Shown: one piece after another, positions 9,322 through 62,048 of the stretch
Layout: every line of letters begins with the position of its first letter
How positions within the stretch are numbered: the stretch's first letter is position 1
NCBI GenBank assembly: GCA_002070185.1
Contig: MWCT01000006.1
Location: 5,001 to 69,000 of the forward strand
Length of the DNA: 64,000 bases
Source of the DNA: a candidate division BRC1 bacterium ADurb.Bin183
GTDB taxonomy: Bacteria; Sumerlaeota; Sumerlaeia; MWCT01
Direction: 5' to 3'
Translations under genes and position numbers: made by a program
The notes under the pieces: model-generated
The model's database searches: none
Told to the model about the DNA's origin: nothing
What the model saw: the letters and a program-made list of their open reading frames with translations, nothing else

Positions 9322-11202
9322 ATGCTAAAAAGAAAAGTCCATCGGATTATCCTACTGCTCCTTGACGCCCTTTTTGTGGCGGTGGCTCTTGCCTTGGCGT
9401 ATCTCATCCGCCGCGATTTTCACATCGAACCGGAATATCGCAGCCAATATCTCACCATTCTCCCGCTGATTCTTCTGGTGCGCCTGACGCTCTTTTTCCT
9501 TTTTAAACTTTACAAAGGCATGCTCCGATATGCCAGCATCAATGAACTCATTGCCATCGTCGCCTCATCCACTATCGGCACGCTAATCTTTGTGATAATC
9601 AATATTATTCTGGAAAACTTTACGCGGCTTGGTCCTTTCCCGCTTCACCCAACAGGACAAAACGTCCTGCGCGTTCCTTGGGGCATTATCGTAATCGAAT
9701 GGCTTCTTGTCATGATTATGATAGGCGCAGGACGATTCAGCCGCAGAATAATCCTGACTTTTGGCATGAGTCTGCCCAAAGACGTCCGCCGCGTTTTGAT
9801 TGTTGGCGCAGACGATATGGGCGAGACGGTGGCGCGCCAGCTGCTCAAAGATTCCTCGCGCGGCTATCGCCCTGTCTGCTTTATTGACGACGACCCCGCC
9901 GTGCTGGGCAAATATATCCACCAGATGCCGGTTGTCGGACGTCTTCGCGACCTGCCGGATGCCATCGAGCGCTACCGCATAGACGATGTTATCATGGCGA
10001 TGCCCCATATCTCGCCAACCAAACTGCGCCAGGTTATCAGCGCTTGCAAAAGCATGCCGGTCACTTTCCACATCGCCCCCAGCATGCATGACCTCATTGA
10101 AGGCAAGGTGGAAGTCAGCCAGATTCGCCGCGTGGAGATAGAAGACCTCTTGGGGCGTGAGCCCGTTCGCCTCTTATTGCCGGAAGATAAAAATTACATC
10201 AAAGGGGAAAAAGTTCTCGTCACCGGCGCGGGCGGTTCCATAGGTTCGGAACTCTGCCGCCAACTGATGTCCTACAATCCAGAGCGAATACTTTTTCTCG
10301 GACGCGGCGAGAACAGCATTTATGAAATCACATCGGAATTGAATTATAACTTCAAGAGCGATAAGATAATTCCTATCATCGCCGATATCGCCGATGAAAC
10401 GCGGTTGCGCCAAATATTTGAGCATCATCGCCCGACCATTTGCTTTCATGCGGCGGCTCACAAACACGTCCCGCTTATGGAGATGTATCCGCAGGAGGCG
10501 GTCAAAAACAACATCTTCGGCACGTTGAATCTCGCCAGATTTGCCGATGAATTCAAAACAAAAATTTTTGTGTTTATCTCAACGGACAAAGCGGTTCACC
10601 CAACCAGCATCATGGGCGCGTCCAAACACATGGCAGAAACGATTATATTCACACTCGCAGAGCGCTCCAAAACCTCCTTTCTTGCCGTGCGGTTTGGCAA
10701 TGTTTTGGGCAGCCGCGGAAGCGTGATTCCCCTTTTTAAAAAACAAATTGAACGAGGCGGTCCCGTCACCGTCACCCATCCAGAAATGACCCGCTATTTC
10801 ATGACCATACCGGAGGCGGTGAGCCTTGTCCTCCAAACCGGCGCTATGCGAGATATAGGACGGCTTTTTCTTTTGGATATGGGCGAACCTGTGAAGATTG
10901 TAGATTTGGCGCGAAACCTTATCACCCTTTCCGGCTTTGAGCCCGGAAAAGATATCGAAATCGTTTTTACAGGGATTCGCCCCGGCGAAAAACTTTCAGA
11001 AGAACTGCTATCAGAGGGCGAGGATATAAAGAAAACGGATATGGACAAAATTTTTGTCGCGCAGACAACGGGCAGCGATTGGATTGAACTCCAGCGCGGG
11101 ATGGATGATTTCCGCCAGCATTGCCTCGAAGGAAATGAAGACGCCATCCGCCGTCTGCTTATGAAATTTGTGCCCTCCTATCGCCCCGAGTCTGCCCATT
11201 AA
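9322..11202 (+). CDS. Membrane-bound nucleotide-sugar 4,6-dehydratase (PglF/WbpM/CapD family)
   Basis: A 626-residue enzyme of the family that converts UDP-GlcNAc-type sugars to 4-keto-6-deoxy intermediates for surface polysaccharide or protein glycans. The N-terminus has about four membrane helices (residues 10-140), followed by a first Rossmann domain (RRVLIVGADDMGE) and the catalytic extended-SDR domain starting at VLVTGAGGSIGSELC (about 298-312). STDKAVHPTSIMGASKHMAE carries the Met-x-x-x-Lys that replaces Tyr-x-x-x-Lys in this family. The length is typical for the long membrane form. The C-terminal RPGEKLSEEL is also typical. No glycosyltransferase cluster surrounds it, which is unusual for this family. 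Confidence 0.92.
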   Translation: MLKRKVHRIILLLLDALFVAVALALAYLIRRDFHIEPEYRSQYLTILPLILLVRLTLFFLFKLYKGMLRYASINELIAIVASSTIGTLIFVIINIILENFTRLGPFPLHPTGQNVLRVPWGIIVIEWLLVMIMIGAGRFSRRIILTFGMSLPKDVRRVLIVGADDMGETVARQLLKDSSRGYRPVCFIDDDPAVLGKYIHQMPVVGRLRDLPDAIERYRIDDVIMAMPHISPTKLRQVISACKSMPVTFHIAPSMHDLIEGKVEVSQIRRVEIEDLLGREPVRLLLPEDKNYIKGEKVLVTGAGGSIGSELCRQLMSYNPERILFLGRGENSIYEITSELNYNFKSDKIIPIIADIADETRLRQIFEHHRPTICFHAAAHKHVPLMEMYPQEAVKNNIFGTLNLARFADEFKTKIFVFISTDKAVHPTSIMGASKHMAETIIFTLAERSKTSFLAVRFGNVLGSRGSVIPLFKKQIERGGPVTVTHPEMTRYFMTIPEAVSLVLQTGAMRDIGRLFLLDMGEPVKIVDLARNLITLSGFEPGKDIEIVFTGIRPGEKLSEELLSEGEDIKKTDMDKIFVAQTTGSDWIELQRGMDDFRQHCLEGNEDAIRRLLMKFVPSYRPESAH

Positions 11203-11230
11203 AACCAGCGGAATTAAGAAAAATTTCCCT

Positions 11231-13420
11231 GTGGCGCATAACGTGAAAACCAACGCAAACCACCAAACACTCAATCGGGCAATCCTATGCATGGCGTTGG
11301 GGCTTGCAGGCGCCTTTTTGCTGATAAACCCATTAACCCCCAAAATTTTCACCCGCCAGATTGACAAATTTGAAATGGCTTCCCGCGATTTGCGCATGGC
11401 GCTGCGCCCTCCCCGCAAAATGAATGACAATTTAATCGTTATCGGTTTTACAGACCTTGACCATTTTCTCTATGGCGAGGAAATAGACTCCCGAGAGGCG
11501 TATCAGATTCTGCTCCAGACGCTCCGCCGGTGGGGCGCGCAAGCCGTTCTTTTTGACATCCTTTTTGAACATCCAAAACCGATGGACTCCATACTCGCCC
11601 TTAAATTGCAGGAAATGCCGACATATATCAGTTACAAATTTCTCGGCGAAGCGCCGCCGCTTGAACCTCTGGAAAAGGAATTGACAGGCGGCGCCTCTCA
11701 ACCATCCATACAAAAACAAACACTCGAAGATGACCGCATGCAGCTGCTGGACGGTATTGACCAAATGGATAATCTTTCGCGGGAACGCGACGGATTGATT
11801 ATAAATCCCGATGAAAGCAAAGCGGCGGAACTTGATCGCGCCATCCATCTTCAAAAGTTCAAAGTCAATAAATACGCTTTAAACTTTTTTGAAAAACGAT
11901 GGGGCATGAATAAAAAAAGATTTGACCGCCTGTCGCCTCCCGCCGCCCCCTTTGCCGTATTGCCTTCGCCGCTATTGTTTGTATCAGCCGGCGGCGTTGG
12001 CTTTATCAACGTGGTAAAAGAAGGGGAGGAAGTAGTTCGCCGCGCCCCGTTTTTTATAAAACATAAAGACCGCATTTATCCGCATCTCGACCTCGTATTC
12101 CTTTGCGATTATTATGGCGTCAATTTCGATGAGTTGAACATCTTGCCAGACCGCATCGAATTTCACCCCAAAAAAAACGCAAGCGCGCCAAAAAAAATCC
12201 CGATTGATTCAACAGGCAAAGTGCTCGTCAACTTCAGAGAAGGCGACCCCTTTTTAAAAAGAAACGCCTACCCACTCCACCAAATCCTTCATTATGCAAA
12301 ATTTGGGGAAAAAGCGCAGAGTCGGATTAAACCGGAAGTCTTCAAAGACGCCATTATCCTTGTGGGGGAATTAAATCCCGGCGGGTCTGATATGGAACCG
12401 ATTCCCATTGCCGAAGCCTTTCCTATGGTTGGGCTACACGCCGCGATTATAAATATGGTGCTGAATGATGATTATATCCGCGCGGCTGGGAAAAAAGCCG
12501 AAGCTGCCATAACTATTGCCTTGGGCATTTTAATGGGACTCCTCTTTTTCCGTCTGGATTATAAAAAGGCGTCGCTCATCGCATTTGTTATCTTGGCATT
12601 TTATTCCGCGGTAGCTTATTTTGCCTTCAATGGAAAATCGTTTTTTCTGCCTTATGCTCGCCCCGCGGGAACAATTGTTTTATCATACATTATACTGATA
12701 TTTTACATCGTCGGCATCAAAGAGCGGGAACGGCGGCGCGTCCGGAATGTCTTTCTGAAATCAGTCTCGCCCAAAATCGGCGAAGAGATTTTGCGTAATT
12801 ATGACAATGAAGCCATCTGGGGCTCGAAAAAAAATGTTACGATACTCTTTGCCGATATTCGAGGCTTCACATCGCTTTCGGAAGAAATCGGCGCGAAAGA
12901 ACTGGTGGATTTTTTGGATGTCTATTATGACACGCTATCGCAGATTATATTCCAATACGACGGCGTGGTTAATAAATTCATGGGCGATGCCGTTATGGCA
13001 ATCTTCGGCGCGCCGCTGGAACTGACGGACGCTGAATTCAAAGCCTTAAGAACAGCGCTGGATATGCAATCGGCTGTGGCAGATTTGAATGCGCTGCCCA
13101 TTCTTGTGGAAAAATCAAAAAAGATTGCACTGGGAATCGGCATCTGCTCAGGCGATGTTGTCGTGGGCACTGTTGGTCGCAAAAAAATCCGCATCGAATA
13201 TACTGCGCTGGGGGATACTGTTAATGTGGCGGAGCGATTGGAAAGCAACGCCCCCGCCGGCGACATTTATATCAATGATGCAGCATGCAAAAAAATCGCA
13301 TCCAGCCAGAACGCATTCCTCAAAGAAAATAATATCAATTTTGAACCGCTCCCGCCTATGATGGTAAAAGGACGGGCTAAACCAGTATCCGCATGGCGGG
13401 TTGTCGGCTTAAAAAGTTGA
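11231..13420 (+). CDS. CHASE2-domain class III adenylate cyclase
   Basis: A membrane cyclase of about 729 residues that probably makes cAMP in response to an extracytoplasmic signal. An N-terminal helix is followed by a long CHASE2 sensor (IDSREAYQILLQTLRRWGAQAVLFDILFEHP), three membrane helices (about 420-500) and the catalytic domain (about 530-720). Metal-binding Asp residues are in FADIRGF and KFMGDAVMAIFG. The Lys of NKFMGD and the Thr of EYTALGDTVN fit adenine rather than guanine specificity, and NVAER supplies the transition-state Asn and Arg. The start is uncertain: GTG 11231 lies 28 bases after the dehydratase stop, while TTG 11168 would overlap that gene; neither has a strong SD. 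The end overlaps the convergent ompH-like gene by 12 bases. Confidence 0.85.
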   Translation: MAHNVKTNANHQTLNRAILCMALGLAGAFLLINPLTPKIFTRQIDKFEMASRDLRMALRPPRKMNDNLIVIGFTDLDHFLYGEEIDSREAYQILLQTLRRWGAQAVLFDILFEHPKPMDSILALKLQEMPTYISYKFLGEAPPLEPLEKELTGGASQPSIQKQTLEDDRMQLLDGIDQMDNLSRERDGLIINPDESKAAELDRAIHLQKFKVNKYALNFFEKRWGMNKKRFDRLSPPAAPFAVLPSPLLFVSAGGVGFINVVKEGEEVVRRAPFFIKHKDRIYPHLDLVFLCDYYGVNFDELNILPDRIEFHPKKNASAPKKIPIDSTGKVLVNFREGDPFLKRNAYPLHQILHYAKFGEKAQSRIKPEVFKDAIILVGELNPGGSDMEPIPIAEAFPMVGLHAAIINMVLNDDYIRAAGKKAEAAITIALGILMGLLFFRLDYKKASLIAFVILAFYSAVAYFAFNGKSFFLPYARPAGTIVLSYIILIFYIVGIKERERRRVRNVFLKSVSPKIGEEILRNYDNEAIWGSKKNVTILFADIRGFTSLSEEIGAKELVDFLDVYYDTLSQIIFQYDGVVNKFMGDAVMAIFGAPLELTDAEFKALRTALDMQSAVADLNALPILVEKSKKIALGIGICSGDVVVGTVGRKKIRIEYTALGDTVNVAERLESNAPAGDIYINDAACKKIASSQNAFLKENNINFEPLPPMMVKGRAKPVSAWRVVGLKS

Positions 13421-34823: not shown

Positions 34824-35564
34824 ATGAAAAGAAACTCAAAGGTATGGGTTGTTTTAGTTTGCGGCATCATCGCCGCATCGCTGGCAATTGCCGCATGGGC
34901 GCAGAACGACAAAAAGGTTAAAGAGGAGAAGCAAGAAAAAATAATCGCTCTGGAGAATGCGCCGGCGCCTGTGCAGGCAACCATCATTAAGGAAACCGCC
35001 GGAGGAGAGATTAAGGAAATAGAAGAAGAACTGGAAAACGGTAAAATTGTTTATTCCGCCGAATTTGTTAAAGATGGCAAAAAGAAAGAGATTCATGTCG
35101 CCGCTGATGGAAGCCTCATGAAGGAAGATGATAACGAGGACGAAGATGACGAGGAGGAATCGGTCCCTTATGAGTCGCTTCCTGCGGCAGTTAAAGCGGC
35201 GGTGGAAAAACATTTAGGAGGCGCAGGACCTTTTAAAGCCAAAGTCGAAACCAAAAAAGGAATTAAGGTTTTTGAAATTGAATCCAAAATCAGCGAACAA
35301 GACGCCAGCATCGAAGTGACCGAATCGGGCGATCCGCTCGAAATCGAACGCGAAATCCCCGCTCAAAACCTGCCCCCTGCGATTATTGATAAAATCATAA
35401 AAAAGTTCCCCGAAGGCAAAATCAAAGAAGCCGAGCAGGTTCAAAAATTCTATTATGAGATTGAAATAACCGAAAACGGCAAAACAAAAGAAATCATTTT
35501 TTCCCCTACGGGCGAGATGAAAAAAGAAAAAAATGATAAAAAAGAGGAGAATGACGACGACTGA
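34824..35564 (+). CDS. Exported acidic protein with PepSY-like repeats
   Basis: A 246-residue protein with a Sec signal peptide (residues 1-27, ending AAWAQ). The mature part carries three similar units of about 65-75 residues of the PepSY-like type: NAPAPVQATIIKETAGGEIK, SLPAAVKAAVEKHLGGAG and NLPPAIIDKIIKKFPEGKIK, each followed by a strand pair such as YYEIEITENGK. Between and after the units are highly acidic runs rich in Asp and Glu, which could bind cations. PepSY-like proteins next to two-component systems are thought to modulate sensing; here that is inferred. AAAGGAGAAG is the SD. The stop overlaps the regulator ATG by one base (TGATG). Confidence 0.8.
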   Translation: MKRNSKVWVVLVCGIIAASLAIAAWAQNDKKVKEEKQEKIIALENAPAPVQATIIKETAGGEIKEIEEELENGKIVYSAEFVKDGKKKEIHVAADGSLMKEDDNEDEDDEEESVPYESLPAAVKAAVEKHLGGAGPFKAKVETKKGIKVFEIESKISEQDASIEVTESGDPLEIEREIPAQNLPPAIIDKIIKKFPEGKIKEAEQVQKFYYEIEITENGKTKEIIFSPTGEMKKEKNDKKEENDDD

Positions 35565-36262
35565 TGCGCCTCCTTCTTGTTGAAGATTTCAAGCCCCTCC
35601 AGAAATCCTTGCTCAAAGGCTTGCGGGAAGCGGGATATGCCGTGGATGCCACTGGCGACGGCGAGGAGGGGCTTTGGTATGCTGAATCTAATGATTATGA
35701 TCTCATCATTTTAGATTTGATGCTCCCCGGTATGGACGGTATGACCATCCTAAAAAAACTCCGCGCAAAAGGGAAAAAGAATCAAATACTCATCCTTACG
35801 GCGAGGGACTCCGTCGAGGACAGAGTCAAAGGGTTGGACGCAGGCGCGGATGATTATCTGATTAAACCATTTTCATTTGAAGAACTACTCGCACGTGTCC
35901 GCGCCCTCCTGCGCCGCTCTTATCAGGAAAAAAAACCAATCATACGGATCGGCGACCTTGAAATTGATGTCGCCGCAAAAATAGTCAAAAGAGGGGGAAA
36001 GGCGATTGATCTTACTTCAAGAGAATACGCCCTCCTCGAATATCTTGCCTTTCGCAAAGGAGAAATCGTCAGCCGTCAGGACATCTGGGAACACGTCTAT
36101 GATTTTCATACGGAGGCAACCAGCAATGTGGTGGATGTTTTTATTCGGTTCTTGCGGCAGAAGATCGAAAGGGATGACCTGACCCGTTTGATCCATACTC
36201 GGCGCGGACTTGGCTATGTTTTATATTATCAGGGAGAGGAGTCGGAAAACAATATCCAGTGA
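35564..36262 (+). CDS. OmpR/PhoB-family response regulator
   Basis: A 232-residue DNA-binding regulator. The receiver has E7/D8, phospho-acceptor D51 (LIILDLMLPG), a T near 80 (LTARDS) and the conserved Lys in YLIKPFSFEEL. The winged-helix output domain (about 130-225) has the typical LTSREYALLEYLAFRKGEIVSR, VDVFIRFLRQKIE and IHTRRGLGYVL. The partner is the histidine kinase at 37814, one gene downstream. The stop overlaps the GTG of the glycosyltransferase by four bases. Confidence 0.96.
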   Translation: MRLLLVEDFKPLQKSLLKGLREAGYAVDATGDGEEGLWYAESNDYDLIILDLMLPGMDGMTILKKLRAKGKKNQILILTARDSVEDRVKGLDAGADDYLIKPFSFEELLARVRALLRRSYQEKKPIIRIGDLEIDVAAKIVKRGGKAIDLTSREYALLEYLAFRKGEIVSRQDIWEHVYDFHTEATSNVVDVFIRFLRQKIERDDLTRLIHTRRGLGYVLYYQGEESENNIQ

Positions 36263-37797
36263 GGAGAATATCCCGTATATATTTGTTTTTTGCCTTAATA
36301 GCCCTGTTTTATCTGGGGCTGCCTTCATTTATCCGCCCTCTTTATCCAAGGGATGAAGGGCGATATGCGGAGGTTGCTCGACAAGCCACCGATAATGGAT
36401 GCTGGCTGATTCCTTATCTTAATGGAATTCCGCATCTCACCAAACCGCCGCTTTACTACGATTTGACAGGTGTTGCCTTTTCTCTGTTGGGTCAGAATCT
36501 GTTTTCGGCTCGATTGATTTCCGTCATCTCATTTATGGGATGTCTGCTTTTGACTATCAAATGGGCCGGAAAACAGGGCGGTATCGAAGCGGCGAAGATA
36601 ACTGCCATTCTTACATTTGCCATGGTTCAGCCCGTTTTGGCGGGACAATTCGGCGATCTGAACATGCTTTTGACCTTTTTTGTGACGGCAGGAATGCTCT
36701 TGATATTTGATGGTATGCTTAATCCCGAAAAAAGGTACTCGTGGCACTGGGGCTGGGCGCTGGTCTCTTTGGGATTCCTTGTGAAGGGACCTCCGGCTCT
36801 GATTCTTCCCGTCGGAACAATCTCCTTGTTCAGGATTGTACATGGACGATCCGCCAAAATAAATTGGAAGCCTTTGGTTGCCGCTTTTGCCATTTTTATG
36901 TTGATCGCTGCGCCTTGGTTTCTCTGGATCCTGGCGAGCATGGAGAAGAACGTGATACCTTTCTGGTGGAAATATTCCTTACAGCGGTCGGCGATTAATA
37001 AAGAGAGAAGTTCCGTATTTTACTTTTTTAATTATCTTCCTATTGTTATTTTGGGGACATCGGGCTGGGGGCTCGCTTACTATTGGGGATTAATCAAAAG
37101 AATAAAACGCTCCATGCCCCTTTTGATAAATGGGCAATTTTCCAAAGGGTTCATGATATTATTTTCCGGGGCGAACGCATTCGAGTCATTTTTATTATCC
37201 TGGATTATCTTTACGCTGGCTTTTTTTTCTTTAATCCGCGCTACGATGTTTTCTTACATCCAGCCCCTGTATCCCGCCGCAGCATTGTTTTTAGGTGTTT
37301 TTTACGCAAAAAAATACAAAACATGGTCTGGGTTTTATTTAACGCATCATAAAAGAATTATTGCCTCTCTTTCAATGACATGTGCAATTATTTGGATATT
37401 TGCCTGCGTATATTATCTGGCGCGCTTTGCACCCCCATCGAAAAAATTCATAGATAATAGTTATGAACTTAATGCCGTAGGAGATAAAATCGAACCGGCC
37501 AAAGGAAGGCAATTTGATTTGATTCAGATTGATGAATTTTCACCATATATCAATTATGTTCTAAAAAAGGATTCCATCCTTGTGGAGACAGAAATTCATA
37601 AGGATTTGCCAATACCCCCGGCTTTTAGCGCTTCTTGGAATAGCATTGAAAAAAAGATTCAAAACAATGACCCTCTCCTGATTGTTGCGAAGAGGAAATA
37701 CTTACAAGAAAAGAAAATAAACAATTATAATAATATTAACATTCTGTTTGAAGGACAGAAATTCACGGTATTGAAGACCCGCTCGCTTCAATTTTAG
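36259..37797 (+). CDS. ArnT-like membrane glycosyltransferase (GT-C, GT39/GT83 type)
   Basis: A 512-residue polytopic transferase with about eleven helices. The first periplasmic loop has YPRDEGRYAEVARQATDNG and HLTKPPLYYDL, the D-E-x-R-Y and K-P-P-L/W motifs of ArnT and protein mannosyltransferases. Enzymes of this type move a sugar from an undecaprenyl carrier to lipid A or to proteins in the periplasm; the sugar here is unknown. A C-terminal soluble domain follows the last helix (from about 395). GTG 36259 overlaps the regulator stop. It sits between the regulator and its kinase, so its expression is tied to that system. Confidence 0.87.
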   Translation: MRRISRIYLFFALIALFYLGLPSFIRPLYPRDEGRYAEVARQATDNGCWLIPYLNGIPHLTKPPLYYDLTGVAFSLLGQNLFSARLISVISFMGCLLLTIKWAGKQGGIEAAKITAILTFAMVQPVLAGQFGDLNMLLTFFVTAGMLLIFDGMLNPEKRYSWHWGWALVSLGFLVKGPPALILPVGTISLFRIVHGRSAKINWKPLVAAFAIFMLIAAPWFLWILASMEKNVIPFWWKYSLQRSAINKERSSVFYFFNYLPIVILGTSGWGLAYYWGLIKRIKRSMPLLINGQFSKGFMILFSGANAFESFLLSWIIFTLAFFSLIRATMFSYIQPLYPAAALFLGVFYAKKYKTWSGFYLTHHKRIIASLSMTCAIIWIFACVYYLARFAPPSKKFIDNSYELNAVGDKIEPAKGRQFDLIQIDEFSPYINYVLKKDSILVETEIHKDLPIPPAFSASWNSIEKKIQNNDPLLIVAKRKYLQEKKINNYNNINILFEGQKFTVLKTRSLQF

Positions 37798-37813
37798 CCT
37801 TCTTGGAGATAAT

Positions 37814-39322
37814 ATGTTCGGATCTCATAAATATTCCGGCGGAAAGAGAAGCCTTCGAACAAGGCTTTTAATCAATCTTTCCATATTTATGGCAATAATT
37901 TTTTCCGCACTCTGGTTTGTTGTGGCGGCAAGAACTCAAAAAGCCCTTTACTCCGCCCTCGATGAGGCTGTTCTTGCAAGAGCGGAAAGCGTTGCCGCTC
38001 TGCTTTCTTACGATCCCGAGAGCGGATTGCTCCGTATGGAGAAAAATGAAAGGCTGATGTATGAATTCCGCGCCGATGAAGATGACGCCTTTTTTCAAAT
38101 CCGCGACGCATCGAATGGACGGATTTGCTTCCTTGCGCCTTCGATGAAAAGCAAAGAATTCCGTTCGGAGGCGATGAACAAAATCGCCCGCAAAAAAAGC
38201 AAAAAGAAGATTTATTGGAACGATGTTTTTGGAAAGGAAAACGTGCGTTGTCTGCGCTGGTTGACATCGCCGCAGAAACGGCAAATTCCCACAGGCGCCC
38301 CCATCTTTCTTTTTGGAGAATGCCAAATTGCATCATCCGCTTCTCTTGAAATTATTGTCGGGATAGAGCGGGAGAACGTTGACCGCAATTTTCAACGGAT
38401 TATGGCATATTCTGCAGGCGCTTTTTCCCTGACATTTATTCTCGTTCTATTTCTAACCAATCTTCTTTTGAGTTATTCCTTGCGTTCGCTTTCGCGCCTT
38501 TCAAAGGAACTGAATCAAATTGATAAAATATCATCCGCTATTTCAATTTCAGAGGGCGATGACCGGGAAACCCGGCGCGTGGCATCCGCCATCAATGCCC
38601 TGTTGGAACGGCTTGCCCAATCGGTGGAATGGGAGCGGCGGATGACATCCAATGTTGCTCACGAATTGCGCACGCCTCTGGCAGCCCTTCGTTCCACATT
38701 GGAGGTGGCTCTCAGCCGCAAGCGCAGCGATGGCGAATATCAAGAAGCGATGCAGGATTCTTTATCCTTAGTTTGCCAAATGCAACGTTTGGTGGAAAAC
38801 CTGTTGAATCTTGCGCGCCTCGAATCCGAACAATCGCCTATAATTCTCGAGTCGTTGAATCTAACTCAAATGGTCAAAGAGTGCTTGACTGGCTTTCAAT
38901 TGCAAGCGCAGAGCAAAAATATTTTTATTGATTTACGCACAGAGGATGAGGTGCGCCTTTCAATTGACAAAGACAAATTAAGGGTAATCCTAAATAATAT
39001 TCTGGATAATGCCGTGGAATATACGCCGAGCGGCGGAAATATCCTTATTCAAACGCGATATAAAACAGAAAATGCCGCCGCTGAAATTCTGGTGGAAAAT
39101 TCGGGCGACCCGCTTTCTGATGAGGAACTTAATAACATTTTCAAAAGATTTCACAGGCAAGATACATCACGAGCGGCTGGCGTTCATTTTGGCATCGGAC
39201 TCAACCTTGTTCATTCTTTGTGCGACCTTTTAAACATTCAAATATCTGCCTCCTCCCGACCGGGTGTCGCCTTATCATTATACCTGAACATCCCGCAGAT
39301 GAATTCGGAGAAAAGCTTATGA
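37814..39322 (+). CDS. Sensor histidine kinase of the embedded two-component system
   Basis: A 502-residue membrane kinase. Helix 1 (about 18-38) and helix 2 (about 195-217) enclose a periplasmic domain of about 155 residues; a HAMP-like region follows. The dimerisation domain holds the phospho-acceptor in NVAHELRTPLAAL (His about 282). The ATPase domain has the N-box NILDNAVEYT and the G2 box GIGLNLVHSL; the G1 box (VENSGDPLS) is slightly divergent. Its regulator is at 35564. GGAGATA is the SD. The ATG of the next gene overlaps its stop (ATGA). Confidence 0.93.
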   Translation: MFGSHKYSGGKRSLRTRLLINLSIFMAIIFSALWFVVAARTQKALYSALDEAVLARAESVAALLSYDPESGLLRMEKNERLMYEFRADEDDAFFQIRDASNGRICFLAPSMKSKEFRSEAMNKIARKKSKKKIYWNDVFGKENVRCLRWLTSPQKRQIPTGAPIFLFGECQIASSASLEIIVGIERENVDRNFQRIMAYSAGAFSLTFILVLFLTNLLLSYSLRSLSRLSKELNQIDKISSAISISEGDDRETRRVASAINALLERLAQSVEWERRMTSNVAHELRTPLAALRSTLEVALSRKRSDGEYQEAMQDSLSLVCQMQRLVENLLNLARLESEQSPIILESLNLTQMVKECLTGFQLQAQSKNIFIDLRTEDEVRLSIDKDKLRVILNNILDNAVEYTPSGGNILIQTRYKTENAAAEILVENSGDPLSDEELNNIFKRFHRQDTSRAAGVHFGIGLNLVHSLCDLLNIQISASSRPGVALSLYLNIPQMNSEKSL

Positions 39323-40761
39323 AAAGCAAGAATTCCCCAATAATATTGCTGTTGATTCTTGCCGCTTGTTTATGGGCGGCAGCGCCGGCGCTTTGGGATT
39401 TATGGGGACCCGATGAGTGCCGTTATGTCCAAGTTTCAAAGGAATTGCTCCAACATGGCAACCCATTTCGCCTGACCGTCAACGGCGAGTTTTATGAAGA
39501 TAAGCCGCCGCTGCCTTTTATTTTGATGGCTATTCCGCTGGCTTTGAACGGCGGCGCAGTCAACTCCCTCTTCTGCCGATATCCTTCCATAATTATGAGT
39601 ATTTTAATCCTTATCTTTACATACTATATAGGGAGACGCTTATTCTCGGAGCGTGCAGGATTATGGGCGGCGCTTTGTTTGATGACCGCTCCTCTTTTTT
39701 GGCAGGAAGCCCCGTCTGCCCGGTTGGATATGCAATTTTCATTCTGGGTTCTATTTCCCATCTGGATTTATGCCATGCATCCTAAAATGAAATTGGGACA
39801 AGCGGCGCTTTTTTGGCTTGGGGTATCATGCGGCGCGCTAACCAAAGGTCCTGTGATATTGATATTCATTCTCGCATTTTTATTGGGCATGCAAAAAAAT
39901 TCGCCGGAGGAGCGTCCATTTAAAAAAGTATATTTTCTGTGGGGCATCATTTTAACTCTGCTCATCTGCCTTGGGTGGATGTGGGCGGAAAGCCGAGCCT
40001 CCTCCATGGAAGCTATTCAGAATCAAGCAAAAACTCAGATTATTAAACGAATCTTTTCGCCCTCGCTTCATAAAAACCCATTCTGGTATTATATATTTAA
40101 CCTCCCTGTGAGTTTTGCGCCTTGGATTATTCCTGTTGCCGCAGGCGCATTTTCCCTTTTTCGATACCAACAGTTTCGCAAAGAACATCTAAAGAAACTA
40201 TACCCTCTTGTTATGTGGATTTGTCTGCCGTTGATATTTTTTTCCATTTTAGGAGGAAAGCGCGAGCAATATCTTCTGCCGATATATCCAGCGCTAGCTT
40301 TATTTGCCGGTTGGTATATCTCTGAGGTGATTTGGGACAAAATCGTTCGCCTGCCCTTTTTTCATCCTATGAGCGCGGGCATCTTATCGAAAAAGGTTTT
40401 TGTGATTGCTTATACGGCGGCGTTGATTGCTTTATGGATTGTGTTTCCGCTCTTGAATCAAAGAAAAAGCCCGCGCCCCTTGTGCCTTCGTCTGGATACA
40501 CTGGCGCAAGAATACGGATCAAATGTTGGCGTTTTGAAATATGGTTTAAGACAAACGTTTCAGGTTTATGGCAATTACAAGATTATGAAAGTTTTTGAGG
40601 AGGAATTAAATATAGGCAAAGAAACGCCCAGCATAATTCTTGTAAAAGATAAAGGCGGGGCGGAGAGCAAACACAAATGGCAGGAATGGGGATATGCCCC
40701 TGATTCAAAATTTAAATTGAGCGGCGACACCTTTGAAATTTGGGTGAAAAGGAAATTATAA
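39319..40761 (+). CDS. Second ArnT-like membrane glycosyltransferase
   Basis: A 480-residue polytopic protein starting at ATG 39319, which overlaps the kinase stop as ATGA and has GGAGAAAAG as SD. It shares the motifs of the first transferase: GPDECRYVQVSKELL and YEDKPPLPFIL in the first loop, then about ten helices and a short soluble C-terminus. It is clearly a paralogue of the 36259 gene in type, but the two are too different to be a recent duplication. Both probably use undecaprenyl-linked donors on the periplasmic face. The metallophosphoesterase gene follows after one base. Confidence 0.87.
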   Translation: MKSKNSPIILLLILAACLWAAAPALWDLWGPDECRYVQVSKELLQHGNPFRLTVNGEFYEDKPPLPFILMAIPLALNGGAVNSLFCRYPSIIMSILILIFTYYIGRRLFSERAGLWAALCLMTAPLFWQEAPSARLDMQFSFWVLFPIWIYAMHPKMKLGQAALFWLGVSCGALTKGPVILIFILAFLLGMQKNSPEERPFKKVYFLWGIILTLLICLGWMWAESRASSMEAIQNQAKTQIIKRIFSPSLHKNPFWYYIFNLPVSFAPWIIPVAAGAFSLFRYQQFRKEHLKKLYPLVMWICLPLIFFSILGGKREQYLLPIYPALALFAGWYISEVIWDKIVRLPFFHPMSAGILSKKVFVIAYTAALIALWIVFPLLNQRKSPRPLCLRLDTLAQEYGSNVGVLKYGLRQTFQVYGNYKIMKVFEEELNIGKETPSIILVKDKGGAESKHKWQEWGYAPDSKFKLSGDTFEIWVKRKL

Positions 40762-40762
40762 G

Positions 40763-41782
40763 ATGTCTCGATATACTATTATATTTCGCGGATTTGCGAT
40801 CCTGATGTTTTCACTTTGGTTGTCTTTGCAAATATACGCGCTGATTGTGCAGCGCAAAGGGGATTCTCCCTTGCCTCCATTATTCGGTAATTTTCCAGCC
40901 ATCCGAGCGCATCTGGAACGTGACACGGAAGATGGGGATTTTTCATTCGCTGTGGTTGGGGATACCAAAAGCATTGGGACTTTTGAAAAGATTGTAGAGC
41001 ATTTGCGCCGGACGCCGATTAGTTTCGCGGTTCTTTTGGGCGACTGTTCTTCAGGCGGCTCGGAAGAACACCATAGGTATTTCCGATCCGAATGCGCCGA
41101 GGAGTATGCGCTTTCAGTGCCAGTATTCTATGTGGTGGGGAACCATGATGTTAACCCAGTCAAATTCCCGTTCGAACGATTCGAAGAAATGTATGGTCCC
41201 AGCATTTTTAAATTTGAATATCGAAAATGTCTGTTTATTGTTTTACGCATCCTTGATGCGCCATACTCGAATAAAGAAAGCATGGATTTTCTTGAAGAGT
41301 TAAGCCAAACAGACCTTCGCAAATACAGATATAAATTTGTTTTTATGCACATCCCGCCGCCTGTTTCTCCTTTTATCAAGGCGAGGCAATATAAAGAATC
41401 CGCCCAGCTTGAAGCGATGTTTGATAAGATGGGAATTGATTACGTTTTTGCAGGAGATTTCCACGGTTATGCGGAAAGCCGAAAACCAAAGACGACCTAC
41501 ATAATCACAGGCGGCGGCGGCAGCAATCTCAGAAAAGTTCCCGCTAATCAATTCCACCATGCGGTAGTGTGCCGAGTTGCTGAAAATTCGATTGATAAGC
41601 GTATTATCTACGTGCCTGAAACTAAATATTTTGAAGATCGCCTCGAAAAATTCGCCATTATTTCATTTTATCCATGGATGCAAAAAAATGTATATCTGTT
41701 AATTGCTACTGATGTCCTGTGTATTTTGTGTATTATCGCGTTGATGAAATCGGTAACGATAAAAAAGAAAGAAAATAAATAG
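40763..41782 (+). CDS. Membrane-anchored metallophosphoesterase
   Basis: A 339-residue calcineurin-like phosphoesterase. An N-terminal helix (about 8-26) and a C-terminal helix (about 308-328) flank the catalytic domain. The five metal-binding blocks are present: VVGDTKS, LLGDCSSGG, VVGNHDVNP, MHIPPP and AGDFHGY. The usual D-x-H of block one is replaced by D-T-K, so the metal site may differ. With a single N-terminal anchor the domain should be periplasmic. Substrates could be lipid A or carrier-lipid phosphates, given the two ArnT-like neighbours; this is inference. It begins one base after the upstream stop. Confidence 0.87.
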   Translation: MSRYTIIFRGFAILMFSLWLSLQIYALIVQRKGDSPLPPLFGNFPAIRAHLERDTEDGDFSFAVVGDTKSIGTFEKIVEHLRRTPISFAVLLGDCSSGGSEEHHRYFRSECAEEYALSVPVFYVVGNHDVNPVKFPFERFEEMYGPSIFKFEYRKCLFIVLRILDAPYSNKESMDFLEELSQTDLRKYRYKFVFMHIPPPVSPFIKARQYKESAQLEAMFDKMGIDYVFAGDFHGYAESRKPKTTYIITGGGGSNLRKVPANQFHHAVVCRVAENSIDKRIIYVPETKYFEDRLEKFAIISFYPWMQKNVYLLIATDVLCILCIIALMKSVTIKKKENK

Positions 41783-41794
41783 CCCTTGAATTAA

Positions 41795-43204
41795 TTATTC
41801 TTTTTCAAGGTCGTCGCGTATGAGACGATAATGATCTCGGATGGAGGCAAGACGACCTTGCGCCTCCTTGAGCTTGTCAGTGGTGGATTGCAGCCTTGCA
41901 GCAAGATGTTTCGCAAGGCTTAAGCCAATCTCCGGCGCGCAACGCAAAAACTCCTGAAACTGTTCCTCCGCAATTTCCAAAAGAACCGTGCGGCTCAAAG
42001 CGCGAATAGTCGCCGTGCGGCGCGCATTTAAAAGCGTGCTCATCTCGCCGATAAATGACCCGGGCATATTAATGACGGCAATCTGCCGACCCGCTTTCAA
42101 AATCTCAACCTCGCCTTTGAGCAACATATAAGCGTTGCGAGATTCATCCTCCTCATAAAAAAGAATATCAGAAGGCTCGAGAACCCGCGGTCGGATTAGC
42201 GCCGTTTCCTCCTGCAGAATTTTGCGGATCGCCTCGTTTTTGATTTCGGATTCGATGATGGACTTCATCTCTTCCGGCGGGAGAACGGCTTCCGCTTTTG
42301 GGCGGATGATGCGAGTGGCGCCCGGTTCAAATTTCCCTTCCAGATACAATTCCAGATCCTGAATAAGCGTGGCGCAATTTAAATACCGCAAAAAAGGCTC
42401 GCGTTGGCACATCTTCAAAATAATCGCGCAGACTTCATCCGAAAGACTGGGAAGATAGCGGGCAGGGGAGGGTATGTCGTCTGTAATTTTTTTAGTCAAA
42501 AGAAGCGATGTGTTCAGATCCGAATAGGGCGGTTTGCCAACGAGAAGCGTATAAAATGTAATCCCCAACGCATAAATATCCGTCCTGATGTCAATGTTGC
42601 TCTCCCCGCGAGCCTGCTCGGGCGAGGAAAAAAGCGGCGTCCCGAGCATCATGCCAGCCATCGTCATAGAAATATCCACCTGCTCCCGGGCAAGACCAAA
42701 ATCAGTCAACTTTGCCGTCCCATTTTCGGCGATGATGATATTGGACGGCTTGACATCCCGATGAATAATTTTCAGTTTATCGGCGGCTTCAAGGGCGCGC
42801 GCAATAGCAAGAATAATCGCGGCAGCCTCTTTTTCGCCAAAACAGCCCTTGCGCTTTTGAATATTGGAAAGCGTTTCCCCTTTGACGAATTCCATGATGG
42901 AATAGTAGTAACCTTCATAAGTGCCGTAGCCGTATCCGGCGACAATATTCGGATGACGCAACTTTTTGAGCGTTTCCGCCTCTCTAATCAACCTCCGGAC
43001 AAATTCGCGGTTTTTGCAATAATGAAGGTGGAACACCTTCAGCGCAACGCGTTCGCCGGTTGCCTCGTTCATAGCCTCAAAAACAACGCCGCTGGCGCCT
43101 TTGCCCACTTGCTCAATTATTGTAAAACCCGATATAATATTTCGCCGAAACTGACCGATTTCGGTCAACGGACTCATGGCTTGTAAGGTGTCCCGCTTGT
43201 TCAT
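41795..43204 (-). CDS. Ser/Thr protein kinase fused to a C-terminal cyclic-nucleotide-binding domain
   Basis: A 469-residue cytoplasmic protein. Residues about 25-285 are a Hanks-type kinase with G-loop GKGASGVVFEA, catalytic Lys in ALKVF, HRDVKPSN, DFG in LTDFGLA and SSPEQAR. Residues about 330-435 are a CRP-like cyclic-nucleotide domain whose phosphate cassette reads FIGEMSTLLNARRTATIRA, keeping the Glu and Arg that hold the cyclic phosphate. It is therefore probably a cAMP- or cGMP-regulated kinase. There is no membrane helix; a short coiled tail follows. ATG 43204 is used because the longer frame (to 43243) would run into the tRNA gene. It lies 27 bases downstream of that tRNA on the same strand. 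Confidence 0.9.
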   Translation of the reverse strand: MNKRDTLQAMSPLTEIGQFRRNIISGFTIIEQVGKGASGVVFEAMNEATGERVALKVFHLHYCKNREFVRRLIREAETLKKLRHPNIVAGYGYGTYEGYYYSIMEFVKGETLSNIQKRKGCFGEKEAAAIILAIARALEAADKLKIIHRDVKPSNIIIAENGTAKLTDFGLAREQVDISMTMAGMMLGTPLFSSPEQARGESNIDIRTDIYALGITFYTLLVGKPPYSDLNTSLLLTKKITDDIPSPARYLPSLSDEVCAIILKMCQREPFLRYLNCATLIQDLELYLEGKFEPGATRIIRPKAEAVLPPEEMKSIIESEIKNEAIRKILQEETALIRPRVLEPSDILFYEEDESRNAYMLLKGEVEILKAGRQIAVINMPGSFIGEMSTLLNARRTATIRALSRTVLLEIAEEQFQEFLRCAPEIGLSLAKHLAARLQSTTDKLKEAQGRLASIRDHYRLIRDDLEKE

Positions 43205-43231
43205 TTTGGAAGGTCTTCCGTGAGGTTGGCA

Positions 43232-43308
43232 TGGTGGGCCCACCAGGACTCGAACCTGGGACCAACCGGTTATGAGCCGGTAGCTCTAACCAACTGAGCT
43301 ATGGGCCC
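43232..43308 (-). tRNA. tRNA with CAU anticodon, probably tRNA-Ile2 (lysidine substrate)
   Basis: A complete cloverleaf of 77 bases with encoded CCA: acceptor GGGCCCA/TGGGCCC, D-arm with AGCTCAGTTGGTTAGAGC, anticodon stem ACCGG/CCGGT around loop CTCATAA, and T-arm CCAGG-TTCGAGT-CCTGG. The CAU anticodon is shared by initiator Met, elongator Met and Ile2. Acceptor pairs C4-G69 and C5-G68 are the known TilS identity elements of Ile2, and the TTGGTC variable region matches Ile2 rather than Met. The acceptor begins G-G with a 1-72 pair, which excludes the usual initiator form. Confidence 0.95.
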
Positions 43309-57478: not shown

Positions 57479-57626
57479 TCACGGCAAACTCAAATTGTAG
57501 CCTCTCATCTAAAAATAAATACATCATATTGTATAATCGGTTAAAATTAATTATAATTTGCTTGACTTGCAAAAAGCAAAATCATTATTTTCTAGCCTTG
57601 ATAAATTGAAAACAGGAGGTCGAAAA

Positions 57627-60600
57627 ATGAAATCAAGGTCATTCATTGCAGGTCTATGTTTGTGCCTCGTCTTCCTTATCTCCCTACCCATCATGGCGCA
57701 AAATGCCGTTGTAGAACTCTGGTTCAGCACATCAGAGGAAAATCTTATGGAAAAATCAAAAGGCAAAGGCGCGTCTTTTACGCATGGCGATGTCCTTGCC
57801 TGTCCGTTATATCCGACATTCGGACCCACCCGCGTTGCCTGCTACAATCTGGACCTTCTCAACAAATTCAATTATAATAAAGAAATTGAAAACTTCGGAC
57901 TTGATGCCCTCGACGTTCTTGAATGGAACAGATTCCCTCGAGAAAAATTCCCGCACCTTGTCGCCTTCTCCACAGAAATACATCTTAATAAAAATTTGAA
58001 GGATCCATCCGATGGCGACCTTCTCTTCAATGACGGCTCCTTTATCACCAATAGGCAGTTAATAGAAACATGGCTTATGTGCGCTTACCCAGATAACTCA
58101 TTTGAAGAACTTGACCTCAACGGCTTTCGGGATTTTGGACTGGATGCCGTTGACGTGATCCCGCTTTCTAAATGCCCCCTCCAAAAAGGATATTTTGGCG
58201 AAAATGCCGCTAATGGATTTGGCAAACTTTTTGCAGTATCCTTTTCCACAGAACGCGATATTGTAACCTATAAAGGACAAATCCTCGCAACAGCAGGCGA
58301 TTGCCTTACTGCCGACCCTTCCTGCTCTTCATTTCTTGCGCCGTTCATTATCAAAAATGCCAAAATCACCATTAAACATCAAAAAAACCAGCAGGAGCCA
58401 TTTGATGCCGGGCTGGACGGACTCTTTCGCCTTTCTGCAAACCCCGATGAATCTCCCTACTTTGAAGAAACCGATTCAAATTGTCTGCTTACCCAATTCT
58501 TCAAAGATACCGGCATCCTGAACTCTATCGAACAGAAGAAGCCCGCCAGTGATGAAAAAGCGCCGCCCGATTTAGAACCTCTTGACGATGGCGCCGCCAA
58601 TGGAGACCTTCTTCTTGATAATCCCGCAAAAATCATCCTAACCAACGAGATGATCACTCAAGACCTCTTTGCGCCGAACCCCTGGCCCGGCGATCGCGGT
58701 TTGGATGCCATTGATATTACAATCATGACGCTTGAAGGACCCACTCCCACTCCCAAGCCGACCCGCACTCCCAAACCAACCCCAACGCCAACCATGACGC
58801 CCAAACCTACTCATACCCCGAGACCAACCCCAACACCCAGGCCGACACGCACCCCGAGACCGACCTCAACACCCAAACCGACACTCACCCCGATGCCAAC
58901 CATGACGCCCAAACCAACCTTCACCCCGGTTCCTACCCCAACGCCAACGATGACGCCTAAACCGACCCCGACCCCCATTCCAACCACAACGCCATCACCC
59001 ACTCCTCCGCCCATTATCGGTCCGCTTTGGAATTTTGACCTCCACAACTTCACCAATAGCCCTGTCAACGATATGGAGATGATACTCTTCGATGTCAATC
59101 CCAAAGACATTAAGGAATTTTACATAGGCGGATGGGGACCTCCCTTTGATAAACTCATAGGCACATGGCTGGAATGGAAATCAAAATACCCGCTTATGCC
59201 GGGAGAATATTCACACTTTGGCATCTCCGTTGATCCCATCGCTCAGCCGGACATCATGGAAGTCACTTGGACGCGCGATGGAAGACCTGTGAATATTAAC
59301 TATATGCCAATTCATCAATGGGTGGCAGACCGCGATTTGGTAATTCACATCATAATTAATCCGTATTACGGCACCCCCCGCCTCATTCAGCGCTCATGGG
59401 CGGTTGCCCCCTTCTCGCTTCCGCTTGATGACATGCACCGCAATAATCCCGCCCTGAATAAACTGCCGTGGGAATGGGAAAAACCATTCATTCTTGAACC
59501 GGGAGGAAAAAGCCCGGAGTTGATTATTCCCAACGAAACAAACGACCCCATCTTTGTCCGTTATGATGTCATGGACTCGGTCGTCGGACCCATCGCCGAT
59601 GAAACGATTCATGGCGCTTTCATTAACCAGATTATCTTCGGAGCGGGAGCGGCGCCGATCCTTGAGACGCTCAACAACTTTGACCTCTTGAACAACACAA
59701 AATACCCAGTCAATGACCTCCATATTTTCCTCCGTAAAACCGAACCACAAAATATCCGCAACTTCTACACTGGAGGCTGGGGCAAACCTTATGTTATGCG
59801 CAAAGCCATTAAACTATTATGGAAAGGCAAGGAAATCCTGCCCTGTAATTACGTCCATTTTGGACTTCGCATAGCCGCAGGAGTTATCCAGCCGACCGTG
59901 CGCATGATTATTTGGACATACAACGGACAACCGGTTGGAAGCATCCCCTTCCCATGGATGAAATGGGATGCCTCGCGCCCCGGTGTTGTCAAGAGTGTTA
60001 TCACAGCTCCAGCCAATCCAGAAATCGTTACTGTGGATAGACGCATCGCACAAGGACCCTTCGTCCCGCTCAAACTGCTCGATAAGGATAGCGAACCGAT
60101 TCAGGCGATGACATGGGCGCACCTCCGCGGCGACCCCGTCCGTGTGGGACGCCCCGGACCCATCCTCATGGATCCCTTCTTTGACATTTTCTTCGACATT
60201 GCGCCCAATCCGAGAGGCGTTACCGGCGGTCCCTATTTCGCATCCCTGATTCTCGATTACACCGTGCGCCGTTCGCCGGATAAGGAAACCACCCCTTCGC
60301 TCAGAATGATTTCCGAGTTCGATTACAAATCAGGCAGCACGCTATTCAACTTTGATGTCTGGAATGAAAGCGACAGCCCGATTAATGACTTGGAACTATT
60401 TCTTGACGGCGCAACAACTACAAGCATTCTTTATGCAGCTGGCGATTGGGGCAAGATTGAAGATCTGATAGATGGCGTGGTTGTTTCCTATGACCGCTCC
60501 GCCAGATGGGAGCCCGCCAAGCCCGCCGATTTCAATCTCGCATTAAAAGGGCGCGCCAAGCCGATGCTTGTTCAGTCCGTCCTGACCCTCGATGGTAAAG

Positions 60601-62048
60601 AAGTTGCTCCCATCTCAATCCCATGGAACATGATGTCGGCTTCCTTGCCTCGTCAGTTCTCAAGCATTCTGCGCTTGCCCGACTCATGCAGCGAACCGGT
60701 GGTTGTTAAAAGAGAATATGCATTCGCTAAAACCCCGTTCCTCATCGAGGAGCTCAATTCCCTCAATCCGTCAATCGAAATGCTTTCTTGGGAAAAGGTC
60801 GAAGAGGATCCCATTAAAATTCACCCGCATATTCCCAGCGACCCGCTTCAATTGAACATCCCCACGAGCGCCAAAGCCGTTCTTTTGCGTTACAGCGTGT
60901 GGAATTTTGACGGTAAACACATCGCAAATATTTTGACACAGGCAGTTTTGGCGGATGATATCGGCGCCCATTTATTCGTCAGCGAACAGCATACCAACAT
61001 CCAGATTGGCGCCGTTCCGACTCTTGCTAACGGCTTGATACTGGCTTTTAAGGAAATCTCCTGCTCCGATGTGCTTGCGGCGCCCCAGCCTTTTTGGTTC
61101 ACCGGCGGTCTGATCCGCCCCGCGTCATACATCGTCTGGGCAAACCCAAGAGGCATCTTGCCGCCCGGCGAATCCGCTCACTTCGGACTCATCCTTGCGC
61201 CTCAACACGACGGCAATACCGTATTTGCAAGGTCTCTTAAAACAACCTTTGCCGGAACTCCCATCAACGAGCAACCCATCCCCTGGCCCCGATTCAATAT
61301 GTGGGACGAACTGGAACAGGCGATTATCCACAACGCGCCCATTTGCTTGGATGAAATCTGGGTTTCCGCCCGTTTTGGAAGAGCCGATGTATTTCTGCCC
61401 ATTGAAAACCTCAAACCCAACGACCCGTTATTTGAAGTGATAAACTTCATAACCCTCGAGGGCGAGCCGGAAGTTGAAGCTGATATCCCCGTTTCGGGCA
61501 ACAATAGTTCGGCGTTTATTCAGTATGATGTCAATCGCATCGGAGGCGACAAGCCCGTTGTTATCTTCACTAACGAATATGCGACAACGCCGACAATTAA
61601 CATCCCGCCGCAGTTATCCTTCATACTCCCCGCCAACGAAGAAGAGATAACATCCGGCACTTACACCATCAAATGGATAGACAGCGACCCCGATGACGAT
61701 GCCGAGATTAGCCTCTACTTTGACGAAGACGACACCGGCTTCGACGGCACGCCGATTGTGACAGGGCTGAGCGAGGATGACGAAGAAAACCAATATGAGT
61801 GGGATACGGCGCGTCTGGCAGAAGGGATTTATTACATCTATGGAATCATCAATGACGGCGTGAACCCGCCCGTGATGGTTTATGCCAAAGGCTCCATTAA
61901 AATCACCCGTGTTTCTGACGAAGACATCGCGGACCACATCCTTAACAGACGCGTCTTGGCGCCCGAGCGCCTCAAACTTGCAGACCTCAACAACGACGGG
62001 AAGATAGATGTTGCCGACCTTATCTGCACTTTCGTGAAGAGAAAATAG
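57627..62048 (+). CDS. Giant modular secreted protein with Thr-Pro linker, four repeats and dockerin-like tail
   Basis: A 1473-residue protein with a Sec signal peptide (residues 1-24, LPIMAQ). Residues 25-370 have four GLDA-like motifs (GLDALDV, GLDAVDV, GLDGLF, GLDAIDI) spaced about 80-95 residues apart. A Thr-Pro-rich linker covers about 372-461. Four related units of about 210-225 residues start near 468, 682, 906 and 1110 with strands such as NFDLHNFTNSPVND, NFDLLNNTKYPVND and NFDVWNESDSPIND, and share GEYSHFG/CNYVHFG/ESAHFG motifs. An Ig-like domain (about 1327-1428) precedes a single dockerin-like repeat (DLNNDGKIDVADL). It is probably a surface or matrix protein; no enzyme motif was seen. 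AGGAGG is the SD; the start at 57627 fits the signal peptide. Confidence 0.88.
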   Translation: MKSRSFIAGLCLCLVFLISLPIMAQNAVVELWFSTSEENLMEKSKGKGASFTHGDVLACPLYPTFGPTRVACYNLDLLNKFNYNKEIENFGLDALDVLEWNRFPREKFPHLVAFSTEIHLNKNLKDPSDGDLLFNDGSFITNRQLIETWLMCAYPDNSFEELDLNGFRDFGLDAVDVIPLSKCPLQKGYFGENAANGFGKLFAVSFSTERDIVTYKGQILATAGDCLTADPSCSSFLAPFIIKNAKITIKHQKNQQEPFDAGLDGLFRLSANPDESPYFEETDSNCLLTQFFKDTGILNSIEQKKPASDEKAPPDLEPLDDGAANGDLLLDNPAKIILTNEMITQDLFAPNPWPGDRGLDAIDITIMTLEGPTPTPKPTRTPKPTPTPTMTPKPTHTPRPTPTPRPTRTPRPTSTPKPTLTPMPTMTPKPTFTPVPTPTPTMTPKPTPTPIPTTTPSPTPPPIIGPLWNFDLHNFTNSPVNDMEMILFDVNPKDIKEFYIGGWGPPFDKLIGTWLEWKSKYPLMPGEYSHFGISVDPIAQPDIMEVTWTRDGRPVNINYMPIHQWVADRDLVIHIIINPYYGTPRLIQRSWAVAPFSLPLDDMHRNNPALNKLPWEWEKPFILEPGGKSPELIIPNETNDPIFVRYDVMDSVVGPIADETIHGAFINQIIFGAGAAPILETLNNFDLLNNTKYPVNDLHIFLRKTEPQNIRNFYTGGWGKPYVMRKAIKLLWKGKEILPCNYVHFGLRIAAGVIQPTVRMIIWTYNGQPVGSIPFPWMKWDASRPGVVKSVITAPANPEIVTVDRRIAQGPFVPLKLLDKDSEPIQAMTWAHLRGDPVRVGRPGPILMDPFFDIFFDIAPNPRGVTGGPYFASLILDYTVRRSPDKETTPSLRMISEFDYKSGSTLFNFDVWNESDSPINDLELFLDGATTTSILYAAGDWGKIEDLIDGVVVSYDRSARWEPAKPADFNLALKGRAKPMLVQSVLTLDGKEVAPISIPWNMMSASLPRQFSSILRLPDSCSEPVVVKREYAFAKTPFLIEELNSLNPSIEMLSWEKVEEDPIKIHPHIPSDPLQLNIPTSAKAVLLRYSVWNFDGKHIANILTQAVLADDIGAHLFVSEQHTNIQIGAVPTLANGLILAFKEISCSDVLAAPQPFWFTGGLIRPASYIVWANPRGILPPGESAHFGLILAPQHDGNTVFARSLKTTFAGTPINEQPIPWPRFNMWDELEQAIIHNAPICLDEIWVSARFGRADVFLPIENLKPNDPLFEVINFITLEGEPEVEADIPVSGNNSSAFIQYDVNRIGGDKPVVIFTNEYATTPTINIPPQLSFILPANEEEITSGTYTIKWIDSDPDDDAEISLYFDEDDTGFDGTPIVTGLSEDDEENQYEWDTARLAEGIYYIYGIINDGVNPPVMVYAKGSIKITRVSDEDIADHILNRRVLAPERLKLADLNNDGKIDVADLICTFVKRK
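58741..59008 (+). repeat. Thr-Pro coding repeat (linker)
   Basis: An imperfect 12-24 base in-frame repeat encoding units such as PTPTPKPTRTPK and PTMTPKPT. It is a flexible, possibly O-glycosylated linker within the 1473-residue protein, and is prone to length change. Confidence 0.9.

Follow-up and report, generated by a model that had tools for sequence, protein, structure and literature searches.

The window, by which we mean the whole 64-kb stretch of DNA that was analysed, carries a minus-strand gene that joins a Ser/Thr kinase domain to a C-terminal cyclic-nucleotide-binding (CNB) domain (Table 1). The interval given for it in the first-pass annotation, 41795-43204, is exact and the strand is minus; the plus-strand translation of the same interval is interrupted by several stops, while the minus-strand open reading frame spans 41795-43243. 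Directly upstream lies a tRNA-Met gene, a phosphoesterase gene faces the kinase gene tail to tail, and a predicted CHASE2-class III cyclase is encoded about 28 kb away.

Table 1. Positions of the kinase-CNB gene, its parts and the accompanying features in the window
Feature	Position	Strand	Basis or remark
Ser/Thr kinase with C-terminal CNB, whole CDS	41795..43204	-	469 aa, ATG at 43204
PknB-like Hanks kinase domain, residues 28-275	42380..43123	-	Pfam PF00069 Pkinase, E 3.9e-51
cNMP_binding (CNB) domain, residues 340-420; phosphate cassette G386-E387 ... R396-T397	41945..42187	-	Pfam PF00027, E 5.2e-17
44-residue C-helix, residues 424-467, heptad pattern, T441-T442	41804..41935	-	AlphaFold models, periodicity, CRP alignment
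tRNA-Met (CAU), directly upstream of kinase gene	43232..43308	-	Ends 27 bases before ATG
Calcineurin-like phosphoesterase (metallophosphoesterase)	40763-41782	+	Tail-to-tail with kinase gene, 12 bases apart
CHASE2-class III adenylate cyclase (predicted), proposed ligand source; same genome, not adjacent	11168..13420	+	Pfam and co-occurrence

The N-terminal domain is a Hanks-type, PknB-like Ser/Thr kinase that scores 174.4 bits against a Pfam cut-off of 31.7. The full Hanks motifs reported in the first pass are borne out, with every catalytic residue in place (K56, E75, H148-R149-D150, D168-F169-G170 and P195-E196) and T181 in the activation loop. Its closest relatives in sequence are PknB and StkP (E 5.7e-39 to PknB), and its best Foldseek matches are also PknB. 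The protein falls outside the PASTA kinases: it reaches 254.5 bits over its whole length against the PknB/Stk1 model NF033483 (curated cut-off, 450), and a Pfam scan found no PASTA repeats. A search for membrane segments found no hydrophobic 19-mer, the highest hydropathy over 19 residues being 1.34.

Eukaryotic PKG and PKA carry their CNB domains N-terminally and in tandem, before the kinase. Here the order runs from kinase to pocket, the reverse of PKG as had been noted before; there is a single CNB domain at the C-terminus, and the closest kinases are PknB, which places the protein outside the PKA/PKG class. It is not a CRP/FNR transcription factor either, as Pfam finds no helix-turn-helix after the CNB domain and the chain stops with the C-helix.

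No terminator-like site separates the tRNA-Met gene from the kinase ATG, and it is possible that the two are co-transcribed; the same arrangement occurs in one orthologue contig (L045, genome G001) and is absent from the other seven examined. On the opposite side, the phosphoesterase gene closes a run (35564-40761) that by eye encodes a response regulator, a histidine kinase and two ArnT-like glycosyltransferases. We considered this phosphoesterase as a cAMP phosphodiesterase; it does not accompany the kinase in any of the eight other contigs. We compared these contigs (L045-L052) with the window by blastp and found no shared operon or neighbourhood: only the kinase itself recurs, and what else matched was either another kinase or one of two hits, short or weak, at other places in the window, which indicates that the gene has no operon partner. 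Further along the window, 57558-62048 (+) holds a 1496-aa open reading frame for which a Pfam scan at E 0.001 gave nothing.

Conservation of the fusion and its pocket

The search covered 61 genomes, namely the one containing the window and 60 relatives; 40 of them (G000-G039) belong, by inference, to the phylum Sumerlaeota and 21 lie outside it. Full-length kinase-CNB proteins occur in nine (the genome of the window, G001, G002, G003, G004, G010, G013, G019 and G037), and the eight orthologues are 68, 62, 54, 49, 44, 42, 41 and 37% identical to the query. Nine full-length copies at 37-68% identity to the query show that the fusion is a real feature and not a product of chance. All nine genomes lie within the phylum, no full-length orthologue being listed for the 21 genomes outside it. 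A separate scan of named genomes listed at least 80 loci, nearly all plain kinases; as only listed matches are counted, the family's confinement to the phylum is not implied. Among the matches listed, kinase-then-CNB proteins also appear in three unrelated genomes, of a Nitrospirae bacterium (L076), an Azonexus (L124) and a member of the Burkholderiales (L130).

All nine orthologues retain without change the kinase residues K56, E75, HRD, DFG, T181, GTP 188-190 and PEQ 195-197. They equally retain G386, E387, M388, L391, R396 and T399 of the CNB domain, contrary to what is expected of a pocket that has lost binding. E387 and R396 are the Glu and Arg on which the original description of a CRP-like pocket had relied. 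Decay of a CNB domain does occur in this genome, as another of its CNB proteins, L003, has Gly at the position of the cassette Arg. In the kinase-CNB protein, too, the fold could have been kept as a dimerisation module that lost its response to ligand, leaving the kinase constitutive or otherwise controlled. CNB-fold proteins with non-canonical cassettes are known (Kannan et al. 2007, PMC2246266, in the sections drawn on), and the model contains a long coiled C-helix. We nevertheless consider loss of the ligand response decidedly improbable, given a cassette Glu and Arg that, unlike those of L003, are invariant over nine orthologues down to 37% identity, and given the co-occurrence with cyclases described below.

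The CNB domain scores 62 bits against the PF00027 cut-off of 27.5 and contains the Gly-Glu and Arg of the cassette. A profile of the nine sequences aligns with Escherichia coli CRP over 123 columns (hhalign, E 7.8e-10), CRP having one extra residue in the cassette loop and the alignment running ungapped from the Arg to the C-helix. In this alignment the C-helix continues from the CNB domain and T441-T442 fall on CRP T127/S128, as in a CRP-type domain with a base-capping Thr pair. AlphaFold models, single-chain and built on nine sequences, contain the beta-roll, the cassette helix and helix 424-467 (pLDDT 80.4 for the full protein and 88.3 for the CNB domain alone). Hydrophobic residues recur along the C-helix with a period of 3.5, typical of coiled coils, and the protein is therefore likely to form a homodimer.

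The pocket of Sinorhizobium Clr has G85, E86, R95, S96 and a T140-T141 motif whose Thr residues match CAP T127/S128, according to the portion of the Clr study consulted (PMC10127613). The six Clr residues correspond to G386, E387, R396, T397, T441 and T442 of the kinase-CNB protein, and the Arg is separated from the Thr pair by 45 residues in both. The pair is found in seven of the nine orthologues and T441 in eight, the exceptions reading T-N in L020 and M-N in L023 (the G037 orthologue). As a yardstick, TT or TS occurs in 3/24 other CNB rows and Thr at the first site in 8/24, as counted by hand on rows with letters at both sites, those cut short there being dropped.

In structure comparisons with VIA-align, PKA RI, PycTIR, MtbCRP, Bd1971 and Clr were tied (Z 15.1 to 14.2), so that the fold says nothing on which ligand is bound. 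The best bacterial sequence match and the best Foldseek match of the domain are both the cUMP-binding PycTIR domain, so that the base bound may differ from adenine. These matches are consistent with a ligand other than cAMP, whether cGMP, cUMP, cCMP or several of them, with cAMP not the main one. With T397 after the Arg, the cassette also reads RTAT and so resembles the PKG consensus GELALLYNDPRTATVIA given by Kannan et al. 2007 (PMC2246266, excerpted), and the Thr-Thr pair is that of Clr, a dual cAMP/cGMP receptor (PMC10127613, excerpted). The VIA-align tie weakens the case from fold, since PycTIR is only one of the five tied structures, and the cyclases of the fusion genomes carry residues presumed to select adenine in 7/7 cases (see below). 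An RTA cassette is found in cAMP-gated HCN channels as well, which also counts against a non-cAMP ligand. The Pycsar-cyclase (PycC) models of PADLOC do match the cyclase domain in the window, apparently as generic class III matches. A Pycsar system would have a cyclase that makes a cyclic pyrimidine and stands beside its CNB-linked effector, and the two genes of a supposed Pycsar-like pair would here lie 28 kb apart. Taken together, we judge it improbable that cAMP is not the main ligand.

A separate reading of the locus as a defence system was set aside, as PADLOC seems to have assigned PD-T4-6 and PycC on generic kinase and cyclase similarity.

Cyclases and their co-occurrence with the kinase

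The CHASE2 class III cyclase placed at 11231 by the first-pass annotation is indeed there, within the cyclase open reading frame of Table 1, in which 11231 is an in-frame GTG. Its CHASE2 (E 4.9e-31) and Guanylate_cyc (E 1.4e-25) domains both exceed their cut-offs, and its motifs include the metal Asp pair, the Lys, the Thr/Asp, the Asn and the Arg, by which we predict it to be a class III adenylate cyclase. The Lys (NKF-GD) and Thr (EYT) are what we, like the earlier annotation, take to be the adenine-type residues of class III cyclases, and both are kept in 7/7 CHASE2 orthologues from kinase-fusion genomes (row L171 of the motif alignment was disregarded). A CHASE2 cyclase of another genome (L181, G009:C20) has an eroded-looking catalytic motif and is probably inactive.

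The genome that contains the window has three class III cyclases: the CHASE2 one, L004 with transmembrane and HAMP-like parts, and L006 fused to an AAA-type ATPase part (the latter two as judged by eye). It also has three CNB domains in all, located in the fusion kinase, in a bare 170-aa protein and in a protein with DUF4440; a DNA-binding helix-turn-helix domain is present on 0/3. The last of these is L003 (positions 1303-2223; from contig C13), whose CNB and DUF4440/SnoaL-like domains stand behind what appears by eye to be a signal peptide. Four of the nine kinase genomes (G001, G002, G013 and G019) yielded no CNB besides the fusion; they are drafts of 88-94% completeness in which a CNB gene could have been missed. 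Both counts fit the earlier suggestion of a route that does not need CRP.

Across the 40 genomes of the phylum, of which 9 have the fusion and 31 do not, a class III cyclase is present in 9/9 fusion genomes and in 17/31 others (one-sided Fisher p 0.011). Orthologues of the CHASE2 cyclase, defined by at least 287 bits to the window protein, a threshold chosen after the list was seen, occur in 7/9 against 3/31 (p 2e-4); with the neutral definition of counting any CHASE2 domain above Pfam's cut-off, the figures are 7/9 against 5/31 (p 0.0011). As a control, other CNB domains are not associated with the fusion (5/9 versus 26/31). Within families f9 (5 genomes) and f14 (7 genomes), the sole kinase genome is also the sole CHASE2-cyclase genome, and permutation within families yields p 0.029.

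The association also holds on an rpoB tree, where a Pagel-type test favours dependent over independent gain and loss of fusion and CHASE2 cyclase (LRT 13.84, 0/200 simulations). The result is similar under the neutral Pfam definition (LRT 12.52, 0/107 simulations) and after removal of the grafted genome G037 (LRT 10.03, 1/90 simulations), and is borderline when any cyclase is counted (LRT 7.87, 5/101 simulations). The tree requires at least 5 changes for the fusion and 6 for the cyclase, and Pagel-type tests may overstate an association with so few changes; an independent-pairs test on the starred branches had 2 pairs only. An rpoB match was lacking in genomes G005, G017, G022, G035 and G037, of which G037 was grafted into its family; G024 and G033, whose matches were broken, were omitted.

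An association of this kind could also arise from lifestyle or shared ancestry, in which case the kinase would bind a cyclic nucleotide supplied by L004 and L006 and the CHASE2 cyclase would not be its partner. The genome's own three cyclases speak for this, as do the unlinked genes, the two fusion genomes without any CHASE2 domain (G013 and G019) and the five genomes with a CHASE2 domain over the cut-off and no fusion (G006, G009, G012, G015 and G022). G012 has a CHASE2 domain and no CNB domain, so that a CHASE2 cyclase can act without the fusion kinase. The tree-aware tests and the pattern within f9 and f14 favour instead a true association, and we find it rather unlikely that the CHASE2 cyclase is no partner.

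The sensor-cAMP-kinase route put forward in the first-pass annotation had rested on the presence of both genes in one 64-kb window, where they lie about 28 kb apart and share no conserved neighbourhood. The co-occurrence of kinase and cyclase, for which that annotation had suggested a search, now lends the predicted route indirect support. Outside the phylum, each of the three genomes with L076, L124 and L130 encodes class III cyclases, one of them with a CHASE2 domain in each, a pairing that is no more than suggestive.

The scanned cyclase of G019 is an FHA-GAF-class III cyclase (L182, 1480-3357), and another stands in the Nitrospirae kinase-CNB fusion genome (L228, 544-2067). The FHA domain reads phospho-threonine, so that kinase and FHA-GAF cyclase might control each other in a loop.

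A proposed cyclic-nucleotide-gated kinase and its relation to known systems

We propose, with a probability of roughly 0.55, that the fusion is a soluble Ser/Thr kinase, probably a homodimer, and that a 3',5'-cyclic nucleotide gates it; this ligand, most likely cAMP, would come from the cell's own class III cyclases, chiefly the CHASE2 one. The CHASE2 domain, outside the membrane, would sense some signal and change the cyclase's output. cAMP would then enter the CNB pocket, where G386-E387 and R396, by homology, would hold the ribose and phosphate, while T441-T442 would cap the base in the manner of Clr and CRP and determine how the putative C-helix coiled-coil dimer is arranged. This would move the two N-terminal kinase domains towards or away from a placement that lets them phosphorylate T181 of the activation loop in trans, switching the kinase; for the direction of the switch we would guess activation over inhibition, at about 65 to 35. 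We infer all of these steps, and the residues that they need are present and conserved.

Bacteria usually sense cAMP through transcription factors of the CRP type (PMC10127613, excerpted). It is possible, and we suggest it tentatively, that in this lineage the only or main cAMP receptor is instead a kinase. The route would then be an independently built counterpart of the PKA pathway, in which a PknB-type kinase is followed by a CRP-type dimer sensor and an extracytoplasmic CHASE2 sensor cyclase feeds the pathway, and the same pairing would have arisen in or spread to Nitrospirota and Betaproteobacteria. If the kinase reads cAMP, second messenger would control protein phosphorylation in an arrangement regarded as eukaryotic. 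The family is a soluble and well-defined target for direct tests of ligand, dimer and kinase switching.

Bacterial kinase-CNB fusions as such are already known from domain catalogues. CNB domains attached to bacterial kinases appear in Table 1 of Kannan et al. 2007, under the group 'Other_bacterial' (PMC2246266), and the CNB domain is among those common to Planctomycetota Ser/Thr kinases and yeast and worm kinases (PMC11032199, section 20). In the excerpts of these two sources, the catalogued proteins have the same two domains in one chain and a canonical cassette, and are listed only, with no ligand or partner cyclase named. The literature searched, to which subscription journals are mostly external and which was available in part, yielded no bacterial Ser/Thr kinase with a demonstrated response to cyclic nucleotides and no biochemically characterised kinase-CNB fusion. 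The main text of an overview of the Sumerlaeota (PMC8092238), in the portion available, makes no mention of cAMP, adenylate cyclase or serine. To this the present analysis adds an anatomical description of a conserved family that has an intact CRP-type pocket, is the sole CNB protein found in several genomes and has evolved in correlation with a CHASE2 cyclase.

The fusion shares its kinase domain with PknB and StkP and differs from them in having neither a PASTA match nor a membrane-like segment. Like PKG and PKA, in which the cyclic-nucleotide domain controls the kinase, it combines a Ser/Thr kinase with such a domain, and its RTAT cassette is of the PKG-consensus type; unlike them, its CNB domain is C-terminal and single, its kinase is closest to bacterial PknB/StkP, and its C-helix is long and CRP-like. 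With CRP and Clr it aligns in the cassette, the C-helix and the base-capping Thr positions, whereas its output is a kinase that precedes the CNB domain and no helix-turn-helix follows. That a CRP-like CNB dimer can gate an enzyme has been proven for Bd1971 of Bdellovibrio, a cAMP-sensing c-di-GMP phosphodiesterase that thus serves as a precedent (PMC6717892, excerpted). Bd1971 has a CRP-like C-helix and matches the fold of the fusion's CNB domain at Z 14.3 (rmsd 1.6 over 86 residues), the difference being that its enzyme is an EAL domain placed after the CNB domain, in contrast to the kinase placed before it here.
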